Below are positions 9,280-54,795 of a DNA stretch of 64,000 nt, piece after piece. The DNA comes from Thiomicrorhabdus sp. Milos-T2 (GTDB lineage Bacteria; Pseudomonadota; Gammaproteobacteria; Thiomicrospirales; Thiomicrospiraceae): positions 1,386,917 through 1,450,916 of the forward strand of contig NZ_KL370891.1 of NCBI RefSeq assembly GCF_000702325.1, in the 5' to 3' direction. Below the pieces are notes generated by a model that saw nothing but the letters and a program-made list of their open reading frames with translations, did not search any database and was not told the origin of the DNA. The position numbers and the translations under genes were made by a program. The first letter of the stretch is position 1. Every line of letters starts with the position of its first letter.

Positions 9280-9552
9280 TTAAACCAACCTAAAATTAAG
9301 CCCCAAAGCATTCACGACTTTATAAACCGTTTCAAAACGGGGGTGTTTACCTGCGCCAAACGATTTATATAAGCTTTGATAACCTAAGCCCGTCTTTTGG
9401 GATAGTTCTTTCATTCCCTTGGAACGGCTGACCACTCCTAATGCATCAATAAAGAATTCAGCATCATTTTCATCTAGAGCCGCTTGTAAATAGGCCTTTA
9501 CATCTTCTGCTGTTTCCAAGTATTCAGATGCACTAAATTCACTTGTTTTCAT
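9280..9552 (-). CDS. HigA-type antitoxin (COG3636-like)
   Basis: The 90-residue product contains a Cro/C1-type helix-turn-helix: MKELSQKTGLGYQSLYKSFGAGKHPRF (about 47-75), preceded by DVKAYLQAALDENDAEFFIDALGVVSRSKG, typical of the addiction-module antidote family. It should neutralise the toxin encoded upstream and repress the shared promoter. Its start overlaps the toxin end by 14 bp, indicating translational coupling. The toxin-first order is that of HigBA. It lies next to the cassette-like gene, a setting where such modules are common. Confidence 0.85.
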   Translation of the reverse strand: MKTSEFSASEYLETAEDVKAYLQAALDENDAEFFIDALGVVSRSKGMKELSQKTGLGYQSLYKSFGAGKHPRFETVYKVVNALGLNFRLV

Positions 9553-50739: not shown

Positions 50740-52803
50740 ATGATTACCAACAATGGATGCTTTATTTTGATTATGCGTAAACCCCGAATTCATTCGAGTT
50801 TCTTAAAATTTATTAATTTGTTTTACATTTCTACCACAAACCTTTTGCTTGCAACCATCGCTACCTTTTTATTAATTAGTAATCCGTTAAAAGCCCAAGC
50901 CGACAACCGTCCAAATACTAGCTTATTGAGCAGCCAACAGAAAGCTTACTTATCCGCCTATCAGGCGATAAAACGTAACGATCGTAAAGCCATTGCTAAA
51001 TACAAAAAATCTCTTAAAAACTATCCATTAGCCCTTTACCTTAATTACCACGATTACCGTTTACATTTATCAAAAACACCGACTAAACAAATTAAGCGCT
51101 TTATAAAACAAAATAAAGACCATTATCTCTCAGATAAACTCTACACAAAATGGCTAGCTCAGCTTGCCTCTCAAAAAAAATGGACCACCTTTCTAACTAA
51201 CTATAAACCTCAAAAAAGTCAAAATTTACAATGCTATTACATTCAGGCCTTAGCTAATCGTAAACAAGTTAATAAAGCGATTAAGCTTGCTAAACCTATT
51301 TGGCTATACTCAACCAAGTTAAGCAAAGCCTGCAAACCATTAGACAAGCTAATACGTAATAATAAAAAACTCACTGGAACCATGATTTGGGAAAGAATTA
51401 GCTTTGCTATGAACAAGCGTAAAACCGCATTGGCCAAAAAGTTAAGTTCTGATTTATCTAAAAAAGATAAAACTATGTTCAACTATTGGTTGAAGGTTTA
51501 TAAAAACCCATACTTAGTTTCAAAGCCATTGCCCAAGACTATTTCTACCAGCGTTAAAAAGAAAATTTTTACCCAGGGGATACGCTTTCTAGCCTCTAAA
51601 GACCCAAGCCTAGCAGAAAGTAGTTTAAATAAGTTTTATAAACGCTACCTCATCAACAAAGACCAGTATGCGGTTTTAAAACGAAAAGTTGCATTAAGAA
51701 GCGCCTACCGATACTCCCCTCAAGCAGGCGCTCTACTCCATGAAGTGAATGGAACGGCTGCGAAAACTAAAACGAGTTTACGCTGGCAGGCGCAGGTTGC
51801 TTTAAAACAATCTGACTGGGCGACCTTATTAGAAACTATTGAATTAATGCCATCCAACACTCAACAAAAAAAGCAATGGCTATATTGGAAAGCGCGTGCA
51901 TTAGAGGCTACTAAACAGCAAAAAGAAGCCAACGATCTATATAAAAAATTGGCTAAAAATAGAAATTATTATGCCTTTTTATCAGCTGATAGACTTAAAA
52001 AACCTTACCAATTTAACCCTAACCCAGTTAAAAAACGCGACACCGCATATTTAATTAAAAAGTACCCTGAACTCCAACGCATTCAAGAACTAATGGCTAT
52101 TGACTGGCCGTTAAGTGCAAAACGAGAGTGGTATCAATTATTAAACCGCGTAGACAAAAACGAATTACAAGCCATTGCGGTATTAGCTAACCAGTGGGAG
52201 CAATACTCTCAATCCATCCGTAGCCTAGCTAAAGCAAAAACCTGGCATGACTTAGATTTACGTTTTCCAACTCCACATAAACAACCCGTGATGCTAAATG
52301 CCGATAAAAATAAAATTGATCCGGCTTGGATTTATGGAATTATGCGCCGAGAAAGTGCCTTTTCAGAGGATGTAAAATCCCCCGTTGGAGCGGTGGGATT
52401 AATGCAACTAATGCCTAAAACAGCTCAATACATAGGAAAAAAAATCGGGGTTAAAAAGGTCTCTTTTAAAGATTTAACCAAAGCTAAAAACAATATAGAA
52501 CTAGGAAGTGCCTACTTAAGTTACTTAAATGATAAATATGCAGGTAACAAAGTACTCGCTACGGCCTCTTATAATGCAGGCCCAAATCGTGTTGATTCTT
52601 GGATTCCTGCTAAAGGTTCTATCGCTGCGGATCAGTGGATAGATTCCATACCCTTTACAGAAACTCGTGCCTACGTAAAGGCCGTTTTAGAGTACACAAC
52701 GATTTTTAAATCACTTCTTAATAAAAAATATGATCGCTTGGAAGATGTTATGCCTCCAATCGGTGGCCAAAAATTTAAAAAAACAGATCCTAAACACCCT
52801 TAA
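50740..52803 (+). CDS. slt: Soluble lytic murein transglycosylase
   Basis: The 687-residue exported enzyme has a signal segment (ending KAQA; ATG 50773 is an equally good start), a long alpha-superhelical U/L domain rich in basic residues, and a C-terminal SLT domain with WIYGIMRRESAFSEDVKSPVGAVGLMQLMPKTAQ (catalytic Glu), ASYNAGPNRVDSW and FTETRAYVKAVLEYTTIF. It makes 1,6-anhydromuropeptides that AmpD later processes. It is 76 bp behind mltD. A minus-strand small RNA lies beyond its end. Confidence 0.94.
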   Translation: MITNNGCFILIMRKPRIHSSFLKFINLFYISTTNLLLATIATFLLISNPLKAQADNRPNTSLLSSQQKAYLSAYQAIKRNDRKAIAKYKKSLKNYPLALYLNYHDYRLHLSKTPTKQIKRFIKQNKDHYLSDKLYTKWLAQLASQKKWTTFLTNYKPQKSQNLQCYYIQALANRKQVNKAIKLAKPIWLYSTKLSKACKPLDKLIRNNKKLTGTMIWERISFAMNKRKTALAKKLSSDLSKKDKTMFNYWLKVYKNPYLVSKPLPKTISTSVKKKIFTQGIRFLASKDPSLAESSLNKFYKRYLINKDQYAVLKRKVALRSAYRYSPQAGALLHEVNGTAAKTKTSLRWQAQVALKQSDWATLLETIELMPSNTQQKKQWLYWKARALEATKQQKEANDLYKKLAKNRNYYAFLSADRLKKPYQFNPNPVKKRDTAYLIKKYPELQRIQELMAIDWPLSAKREWYQLLNRVDKNELQAIAVLANQWEQYSQSIRSLAKAKTWHDLDLRFPTPHKQPVMLNADKNKIDPAWIYGIMRRESAFSEDVKSPVGAVGLMQLMPKTAQYIGKKIGVKKVSFKDLTKAKNNIELGSAYLSYLNDKYAGNKVLATASYNAGPNRVDSWIPAKGSIAADQWIDSIPFTETRAYVKAVLEYTTIFKSLLNKKYDRLEDVMPPIGGQKFKKTDPKHP

Positions 52804-52931
52804 AATTGCCAAGCTGGCATTACACCCCATCTCACTTGATATATAAAGCGAGATTTGTACTAGAAGTTATTTAAAGGGCGGTTTCAATAGACTTTTAGTA
52901 GCTTGAAAGGCCATTTATAGTTTTAGTAGGC

Positions 52932-52965
52932 AAAAAAAACCCGAGTTGGACAACTCGAGTTTAAA
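52932..52965 (-). terminator. Terminator of the candidate small RNA
   Basis: On the minus strand AAACTCGAGTTG and CAACTCGGGTTT (one G-T wobble) pair around a tiny loop and end in eight T residues. Confidence 0.88.
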
Positions 52966-53019
52966 TATATTATCTCATTAGAAATAATCAGAGGAGGATA
53001 CTCATGAAGAAACATGAAT
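52932..53019 (-). ncRNA. Candidate small RNA with CCUCCUC motif
   Basis: A predicted 88-nt transcript starts 7 nt after a consensus sigma70 -10 and ends at a strong intrinsic terminator. It opens with a short hairpin (TCATG/CATGA around TTTCTT), then a single-stranded tract ATCCTCCTCTG (about 52992-53002, complement of Shine-Dalgarno sequences), then a weak ATTA/TAAT hairpin and the terminator. This is the build of a base-pairing regulatory RNA. I recognise no known family. It lies between slt and cysS, both of which have other ends nearby. Confidence 0.6.
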
Positions 53020-53025
53020 GACTCT

Positions 53026-53054
53026 AGTATATAAGCATTTTCTTATCTTGTCAA
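53026..53054 (-). promoter_or_regulatory. Consensus sigma70 promoter of the small RNA
   Basis: Minus strand: TTGACA (53054-53049), a 17-bp spacer and TATACT (53031-53026). This is the best promoter match I see in the window. Nothing but the small RNA lies within 90 bp downstream. Confidence 0.8.
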
Positions 53055-53191
53055 GCATAAGCAACCCTTAGATTGAACAATTAAATTTTATAAGCGTATT
53101 TAAGTAACTGTTTTATATCAGCTTATTTTCAATAGGAAAATTATTCATGTCTCAATACTAAGCTTAAGCCCTGATTATAAAAGGGTTACAA

Positions 53192-54568
53192 CTAGCCTCT
53201 TCGCCAAGTTGTTCCCTCAGCGGTATCTAATAATTCAATTTTCTGCTCAACTAATAGATCACGAATTTCATCTGATCTCGCAAAGTTTTTTTCTGCTCTT
53301 GCCTTTTTTCTTTCTTCAATTAACTGCGCAATCATTTCGTCGCTTAAATTTGAATCACTTGGCTGAGACTTAAAGAAACTTTCAGCACCCTCTTCTAACA
53401 AACCAATTTGATTTGCTAATTTAATCAAAAGAGCTGCCAGGCCTGGTTGTTTGGTTTTATTCACTTCTTTAGCTAATTCAAATAATACGGCAAAGGCTTT
53501 AGGTGTATTAAAGTCATCGTTCATGACATCCATAAACTCTGCTTCATAATTTGAATCGGCTGTGGGTTCTGTTGTTTTATCAATACTAACGCTCTCTAAC
53601 GCAGAATATAAGCGGCCAACACTCGCTTTAGCACTGTTAAGGTTGTCTTCAGAATAATTAACAGGACTGCGGTAATGACTAGATAGCAAGAAATAACGAA
53701 TGACTTCTGGATGATAAACTTTTAATACTTCTCTAATCGTAAAGAAGTTATTTAATGACTTAGACATCTTTTCATCATCAATACGCACAAAACCACAGTG
53801 CATCCAAATGTTTACATAATGTTCACCGGTTGCACATTCCGATTGCGCAATTTCATTTTCATGGTGAGGAAAGGATAAGTCCATTCCACCACCATGGATA
53901 TCAAAATGATTACCTAAACATTTAGTAGACATCGCTGAACACTCAATATGCCAACCTGGACGCCCGTTCCCCCACTCAGAGTTCCAACTAGGTTCATTCT
54001 CTTTAGAGGCTTTCCAAAGCACAAAGTCTAATGGATCTTGTTTAACTTCATTCACATCAACGCGAGCACCAGATTCAAGATCATCCACATTTTTACCTGA
54101 TAAGCGACCATATTCATCAAACGCTTTAACTTTAAAATACACATCGCCATTTTCCGCTGGATAAGCAAACCCTTTAGCGATTAAGGTTTCAATCATATGA
54201 CGAATTTCATCCATATGCTCGGTTGCTTTGGGTTCCATGTCTGGACGCAGCACATTCATTGCGGCTTCATCCGCATGCATCTCTTTAATCATGCGTTCAG
54301 TAAGAGATTGAATGGACTCTCCATTTTCTAATGCTCGCTTAATAATTTTGTCATCAATATCGGTGATATTACGTACATAATCAACGTCATAACCTAATGC
54401 TCGTAAATGACGCACTACCGTATCAAAAACCACCATAACGCGTGCATGTCCAATATGGCATAAGTCATAAACGGTAACACCACAAACATATAAACCTACT
54501 TTTCCGGGATGAATAGGGGTAAATACCGATTTTTTACGGGTTTCCGTATTAAAAATTTGTAGGCTCAT
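53192..54568 (-). CDS. cysS: Cysteinyl-tRNA synthetase
   Basis: The 458-residue class I synthetase has the zinc Cys and HIGH motif [51 protein letters not shown] and [12 protein letters not shown] 54568 is used: AGGA lies upstream and [13 protein letters not shown] is the family start; the frame runs up to 54625. It is divergent from ppiA, in line with the cysS-ppiB-lpxH order of related bacteria. QPGLAAL is encoded over a palindrome (11/12). Confidence 0.97.
53436..53447. repeat. ACCAGGCCTGGT-family palindrome (11/12), cysS
   Basis: GCCAGGCCTGGT; encodes QPGLAA in CysS. Confidence 0.75.
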
Positions 54569-54795
54569 AATTTTCCTGCTGTGTGGTTTCTTAATAATTG
54601 AGAATGTTGTATGCGTTGTATGCATTTACCTGTTACAACTATCTCTAGTGAATTAATGCGTTAATTATGGACGACAGTCTTAAGAAACTGACTCAATCCT
54701 TAAAATTCAGTTATAAACTGTTTAGCCTATTTAACCTAGGTGTTAGAATGCTGCATATTGTATCTTATAACCGATTTAATATGTTGGAGTGAATC

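Follow-up and report, generated by a model that had tools for sequence, protein, structure and literature searches.

HU is a main bacterial histone analogue, and HctA is a histone-like, DNA-binding protein. CyaR, an Hfq sRNA of the enterobacteria, binds Shine–Dalgarno regions through a loop of the CCUCCUU type. According to the accessible portions of the two publications, RaiZ of Salmonella represses hupA (HU-alpha) at the ribosome-binding site with ProQ (PMC5391140), while IhtA of Chlamydia trachomatis represses the translation of HctA (PMC4355289). The alpha-r14 family, with NfeR1 of Sinorhizobium, is described in the accessible portion of its publication as having three hairpins, each with CCUCCUCCC in its unpaired regions (PMC10746234).

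The locus described here lies in Thiomicrorhabdus sp. Milos-T2, within the window, i.e., the whole stretch of 64,000 nucleotides that was analysed. An original prediction had proposed for this locus a candidate base-pairing small RNA, expressed from its own promoter and ended by its own terminator. The anatomy of the gene, its conservation, its complementarity to hup, the ranking of hup and the joint absence of sRNA and hup site were established by computation. The features of the locus and its neighbours, in window coordinates, are as follows:

53192–54625, minus strand: cysS, the upstream neighbour, on the same strand as the sRNA (TIGR00435, 602 bits, over the cut-off)
53049–53054, minus strand: −35 element TTGACA, with TTGAC kept in 50 of 54 orthologous loci
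53031–53046, minus strand: dyad ATAAG-N6-CTTAT in the promoter spacer, a putative operator
53026–53031, minus strand: −10 element TATACT, a sequence match
52932–53019, minus strand: sRNA transcript unit of 88 nt, its start placed from the promoter (fold z −4.89)
53000–53019, minus strand: hairpin 1, AUUCAUG-UUUCUU-CAUGAGU, from the fold and a comparison of loci
53000–53012, minus strand: UUUCUUCAUGAGU, predicted pairing site 1 for the Shine–Dalgarno region of hup (HU), from complementarity and ranking
52989–52999, minus strand: unpaired AUCCUCCUCUG tract, a candidate second site (site 2) for pairing with the upstream hup leader, from the fold and comparison
52969–52988, minus strand: hairpin 2, with a loop that differs among species, from the fold and alignment
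52932–52962, minus strand: intrinsic terminator, an 11-pair stem and eight T (T-run at 52939–52932)
50740–52803, plus strand: slt-type lytic transglycosylase, the convergent downstream neighbour (murein transglycosylase model, below the cut-off)

The anatomy that had been proposed for the minus strand was borne out. TTGACA (53054–53049) and TATACT (53031–53026) are separated by a spacer of 17 nt, and this candidate promoter agrees with the consensus at 11 of 12 positions, which makes it the best of six promoter-like sites within 51500–54500. Shuffled sequence holds on average 9.3 promoter-like sites scoring at least 9/12, so the consensus match by itself is little proof. The 88-nt unit is predicted to fold into three hairpins, of which the third is the terminator, followed by the eight T. 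Its fold energy is −24.2 kcal/mol compared with −11.2 for shuffles (sd 2.66; z −4.89), and none of 200 shuffles equalled it. The exposed tract of the original prediction is also present, as AUCCUCCUCUG is single-stranded in the predicted fold between hairpins 1 and 2. By its sequence, this is a free-standing gene that has a promoter and an intrinsic terminator of its own. No Rfam 15 family reached its gathering score anywhere in the window, the best weaker match scoring 20.6 bits against a cut-off of 50, and ARAGORN found no tRNA or tmRNA in the window. The window also encodes an addiction-module antidote protein at 9280–9552 on the minus strand (TIGR02684, 102.4 bits, over the cut-off).

Conservation was followed through 62 genomes of the order, comprising one family and seven genera. 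An sRNA match was found in 54 of them with all seven genera represented, including Thiomicrorhabdus, Hydrogenovibrio, Thiomicrospira and Sulfurivirga; the genus-level group g17 is labelled here the “cave clade”. The gene is single copy in its own genome. An exact copy of the core UUUCUUCAUGAGUAUCC is present in 49 of the 54 loci, the exceptions being G006, G008, G018, G050 and G051. The tract reads CCUCCUC in 42/54 and CCUCCU in 51/54, with CCUCCUU in nine Thiomicrospira loci and CCUCUUA in three cave-clade loci as the variants. Terminator hairpins occur in the 54 loci as 51 distinct sequences, and in Sulfurivirga the 5′ arm of hairpin 1 is altered (e.g., ACUCACG) with its pairing mostly retained. 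The sRNA is adjoined by cysS in 47/54 loci, by slt in 46/54 and by both in 43/54, several loci ending early. The original prediction had made conservation of promoter, tract and terminator in relatives its own test, and with these tract counts the test is passed. Order-wide conservation thus supports a gene for a base-pairing sRNA, equipped with a promoter and a terminator of its own, and 52932–53019 is almost certainly a real sRNA gene.

The strict form of the spacer dyad, WTWAG-N6-CTWAT, occurs in 32 of the 54 loci (25/26 Thiomicrorhabdus, 6/11 Hydrogenovibrio and 1/1 g22) and is absent from all Thiomicrospira, Sulfurivirga and cave-clade loci among them. It may represent an operator for some factor. 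A Fur-like reading, compared by eye, was a poor fit and was set aside.

Covariance model R1 contains only 13 pairs because the loops and terminators align badly, and was built on 31 rows, one of which (L013) ends before the T-run. It recovered the gene in G000 and G023 and missed that of cave-clade G040, although this had been found by blastn. The model gave nothing convincing in the eight genomes lacking the sRNA, a match in G063 (E 0.96) having been rejected after inspection. Outside the order, no homologue with the same context was found in 369 genomes of the class or in a wider pattern scan of contigs. The class scan, allowing at most one mismatch, returned 11 matches, four of them exact and within the order and seven outside it with one mismatch and no promoter. 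The wider scan returned 62 loci, with 29 assigned to the order by context and the other 33 having no promoter plus terminator. Of these 33 exact core-complement matches in unrelated bacteria (within L090–L151), 16 passed a crude test for gene starts that was run without a control, suggesting that the core complement resembles translation starts in general. No published sRNA of Thiomicrospira, Hydrogenovibrio or Thiomicrorhabdus was found in the literature searched, most subscription papers being outside its scope.

Two described RNAs resemble the Milos-T2 sRNA in the tract. CyaR differs from it in that the locus has no Rfam match at gathering score, and CyaR is absent from the 19 weaker matches. 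The alpha-r14 family, so far as the accessible portion of its description goes, shares with the Milos-T2 sRNA the presence of three hairpins and a C/U-rich anti-Shine–Dalgarno tract (PMC10746234). The comparison with Rhizobiales made in the original prediction holds as an analogy, but the motif that defines alpha-r14 in that description, CCUCCUCCC in three hairpins, is not found here. Instead, the Milos-T2 sRNA carries a single CCUCCUC, located between hairpins, and its best target contact lies elsewhere.

Potential targets were ranked by the energy gained on cofolding the cognate sRNA with each called translation start in samples of four genomes. By this measure, hup was first of 679 in the Milos-T2 genome (Thiomicrorhabdus; z −6.3), second of 376 in the Hydrogenovibrio genome G044 (z −4.6), second of 401 in the Sulfurivirga genome G056 (z −3.6) and 16th of 364 in the Thiomicrospira genome G070 (z −1.8). 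These ranks refer to sampled genome stretches and a simple start-codon rule, so unsampled genes could outscore hup, and cofolding ignores Hfq and kinetics. Ranking by longest helix left 1, 1, 3 and 6 genes equal or better, hup included, in the four sampled genomes. Of the 295 genes that have orthologues in two or more samples, hup came top with a combined p of 2.7e-6 against 1.2e-3 for the runner-up; the combined p-values treat related genomes as independent and serve as a ranking aid. When the 31-nt core was permuted identically in the four genomes, 0/24 runs gave any gene a value as low as that of hup, the best being 5.2e-4. The hup product is identified as HU by its best NCBIfam matches (HU-beta, HU-alpha), which are below the equivalog cut-offs. 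For Thiomicrorhabdus, Hydrogenovibrio and Sulfurivirga, complementarity and ranking together make hup the probable main conserved target.

Two further genes were noted during this ranking. The gene hfq, recognized by sequence (MENKKVAK...; L177:10157–10423, L261:2110–2379), was second for the whole sRNA among the 295 (p 1.2e-3). Its site seems to lie on the start codon (AUGGAGAAU); with that p among 295 genes and a site on the coding start, it is not claimed as a second target. Pairing of the sRNA with hfq might provide feedback, but falls short of significance once corrected. For the tract alone, the conserved start that scores best is that of a 149-aa protein (MSIKKDANAIIDQL..., L185:5684–6133) with no NCBIfam match.

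The predicted contact joins UUUCUUCAUGAGU of the sRNA with ACUCAUGGAGAAA of hup through 13 bp, including one G-U, and covers the Shine–Dalgarno sequence GGAG. In G000 there is an in-frame upstream ATG in hup at CATGGAG, but in some other genomes it is out of frame (e.g., L201, L211), and GGAG is therefore read, by eye, as the hup Shine–Dalgarno sequence. Hairpin 1 alone (nt 1–21) places hup first of the 295 genes (p 7e-6), and the same rank is obtained with just its loop and 3′ arm (p 6.6e-6). With the CCUCCUC tract by itself, hup is 206th of 295 when the tract is matched to translation starts and second when it is matched to the leader from −75 to −18 (p 2e-3); the plausible contact of the tract with hup is upstream of the Shine–Dalgarno sequence. 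The anti-Shine–Dalgarno action that had been attributed to the tract is thus retained as a prediction for hup, but through the loop and 3′ arm of hairpin 1. Site 1 does not account for the conservation of the CCUCC tract.

The leading rival reading is a multi-target sRNA whose main working element would be the unpaired CCUCCUC, directed at many Shine–Dalgarno sequences, with hup one among several. The tract is indeed unpaired and conserved as CCUCCU in 51/54 loci, and both the small-protein start (MSIKKDANAIIDQL...), best for the tract alone at p 2.8e-4 among 295, and hfq, second for the whole sRNA, would suit such an RNA. Nevertheless, multiplying by the 295 genes raises these p-values to ~0.08 for the small protein and ~0.35 for hfq, and the tract alone leaves hup in 206th place at translation starts. 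Moreover, in the cave clade it is the tract that is broken (CCUCUUA), whereas the loop and 3′ arm of hairpin 1 are retained. This reading is judged unlikely in comparison with hup as the main target.

The exact sequence ACTCATGRAGAAA occurs at only two places in the Milos-T2 genome, the hup Shine–Dalgarno sequence and the sRNA locus itself. Matches with at most one mismatch numbered 11 compared with 9 for a reversed control, which is barely more, so only the exact count is relied on; none of the nine one-mismatch matches resembles a clear gene start. This genome-wide search for the 13-nt site covered exact and one-mismatch forms, with G-U variants falling outside it. The extended core complement AGGAGGATACTCATGAAG, searched with up to three mismatches, was found in the same genome at the sRNA locus and in two three-mismatch matches inside other frames, and a control pattern likewise gave two matches. 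With so few matches and the control equal, the idea of an antisense to one near-perfect region of Shine–Dalgarno sequence plus start was abandoned; the predicted pairing with hup takes up a part of this extended complement.

In the second rival reading, the complementarity to hup arises by coincidence, from a likeness of both sequences to any ordinary translation start, and some other gene outside the sampled stretches is the real target. Each genome was ranked only in part, and 16 of the 33 exact core-complement matches outside the order pass the crude gene-start test, for which no control pattern was run. However, the restriction of the exact 13-nt site to two places and the permutation control (0/24 as low) speak against coincidence, as do the replication of the contact in Hydrogenovibrio and Sulfurivirga and the joint absence of sRNA and site, both set out below. 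Coincidence is considered improbable, and more so than the multi-target reading.

Replication across genera was assessed on hup leaders. An orthologue of hup was present at the cut-off in 56 of the 62 genomes and 55 leaders were examined, G072 being left out as it lies at a contig edge; the species are related, and the genome counts are not independent. Site 1 was matched by at most 6/300 shuffled leaders in 24/25 sRNA-bearing Thiomicrorhabdus, 8/11 Hydrogenovibrio, 1/1 g19, 1/1 g22 and 2/2 sRNA-bearing Sulfurivirga, and also in G058 when tested with the G000 sRNA. The hup helix extends to 16 contiguous bp in 7/11 Hydrogenovibrio. Site 1 fails the shuffle test in 3/11 Hydrogenovibrio and G018, and beats the shuffles in 0/5 Thiomicrospira and 0/4 cave-clade genomes. 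In the latter two groups, 9–11 bp remain around the hup start codon, partly forced by the coding sequence, and hup targeting there is weak. A conserved pairing region is therefore accompanied by conserved target complementarity, except for hup in these five Thiomicrospira and four cave-clade genomes.

An earlier test, in which the whole sRNA was cofolded and 50 leaders were shuffled over 45 nt, was weaker. Shuffles as good as the native leader numbered 22/200 in G056 and 8/200 in G057 (Sulfurivirga), 26/200 in both G050 and G002, and 50/200 in G018. Site 2, the tract with the upstream leader, was matched by at most 15/300 shuffles in 10/25 sRNA-bearing Thiomicrorhabdus and 3/3 Sulfurivirga, and in none of the other genomes tested. 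In some genomes, the tract may have a second pairing site further upstream in the hup leader.

The sRNA was undetected in 8 of the 62 genomes. In G022 and G063, cysS and slt are adjacent on one contig with the sRNA missing between them. In G001, G016, G065 and G043, neither an slt match nor the sRNA follows cysS in the stretch examined. The assemblies of G012 and G058 have no cysS match at the cut-off, so the absence of the sRNA there may be an assembly gap. A rough CysS tree, drawn from partial sequences of one gene in at most 32 genomes with some near-zero branches, unites G001, G016, G022, G063 and G065 as one clade inside Thiomicrorhabdus (support 0.98). The sequence CUCAUGGAG is present in hup in 20/25 sRNA-bearing Thiomicrorhabdus compared with 0/5 of those without the sRNA (G001, G012, G022, G063, G065), an association with a Fisher p of 0.0018 when kinship is ignored. 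The joint absence of sRNA and hup site looks like one phylogenetic event. One of the five sRNA-less Thiomicrorhabdus, G001, has an altered hup site that still falls within the 6-of-300 line (3/300), and Sulfurivirga G058 has kept the hup site with the sRNA undetected.

The original statement that no coding frame of merit lies in the unit holds, save that a 5-codon frame is open in 54/54 loci. A coding mini-gene, whose core encodes the pentapeptide MSILL and whose RNA works through translation, is very improbable: the frame (52988–53005, minus strand) does read MSILL and stop in 53 of those loci and MNILL and stop in one, and Leu-Leu-stop is preserved where the codons differ, as CTC CTT TAG in Thiomicrospira and as CTC TTA TGA in the cave clade, but no Shine–Dalgarno sequence stands ahead of it, its AUG sits in a stem, and the invariant third positions of AGT (AAT in one), ATC and the first CTC, together with a non-coding UUUCUU before the AUG that is conserved nearly as well, indicate a constraint on nucleotides.

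In the preferred reading, the locus is transcribed on its own into an sRNA of ~88 nt that is conserved throughout the order and acts in trans on hup. That the gene is transcribed, that its RNA binds Hfq, in which direction and with what effect it regulates, and by what signal it is induced are inferred from the computed features rather than observed directly. Within hairpin 1, UUUCUUCAUGAGU (loop plus 3′ arm) would pair with ACUCAUGGAGAAA over the hup Shine–Dalgarno sequence, and the 5′ arm could add pairs over the hup start codon. The CCUCCUC tract could engage the second, upstream leader site in collinear order in Sulfurivirga and in some Thiomicrorhabdus. Pairing over the Shine–Dalgarno sequence would block 30S loading and lower the synthesis of HU. 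Hfq probably assists the sRNA; it is present in the Milos-T2 genome (TIGR02383, 100.7 bits, over the cut-off), and the tail of eight T is compatible with Hfq binding, as a prediction. ProQ (PF04352) was not found in this genome, the one searched, and was found in the E. coli control.

The repression of hupA by RaiZ offers a precedent for this kind of regulation and, in the accessible portion of its description, a stem-loop of the sRNA likewise takes part in pairing (PMC5391140). RaiZ derives, by that account, from the 3′ end of raiA, whereas the Milos-T2 sRNA has its own promoter and follows cysS. RaiZ also uses ProQ, which was not found in Milos-T2, and the protein partner probably differs. 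Set apart by gene position and promoter, the Milos-T2 sRNA is apparently of separate origin. IhtA, compared by its partial description, resembles the proposed sRNA in controlling the translation of a DNA-binding, histone-like protein and differs from it in target protein and lineage. The fullest form of the proposal is put forward tentatively: an undescribed, order-wide sRNA family with a core dedicated to HU, in which one uninterrupted stretch would clamp the hup leader at two collinear places, the Shine–Dalgarno sequence and an upstream site. Such control of HU at the post-transcriptional level would have arisen separately from RaiZ, and one clade would have lost gene and target site alike.

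The sRNA–hup pair is directly testable, with the lineages of natural loss as controls. If true, it would be a further case of sRNA control of nucleoid proteins, after RaiZ–hupA and IhtA–HctA as far as these are described in the accessible portions of their publications (PMC5391140, PMC4355289). RNA control of nucleoid protein synthesis would then appear as a recurrent solution, kept in this instance across an order of sulphur-oxidising bacteria.
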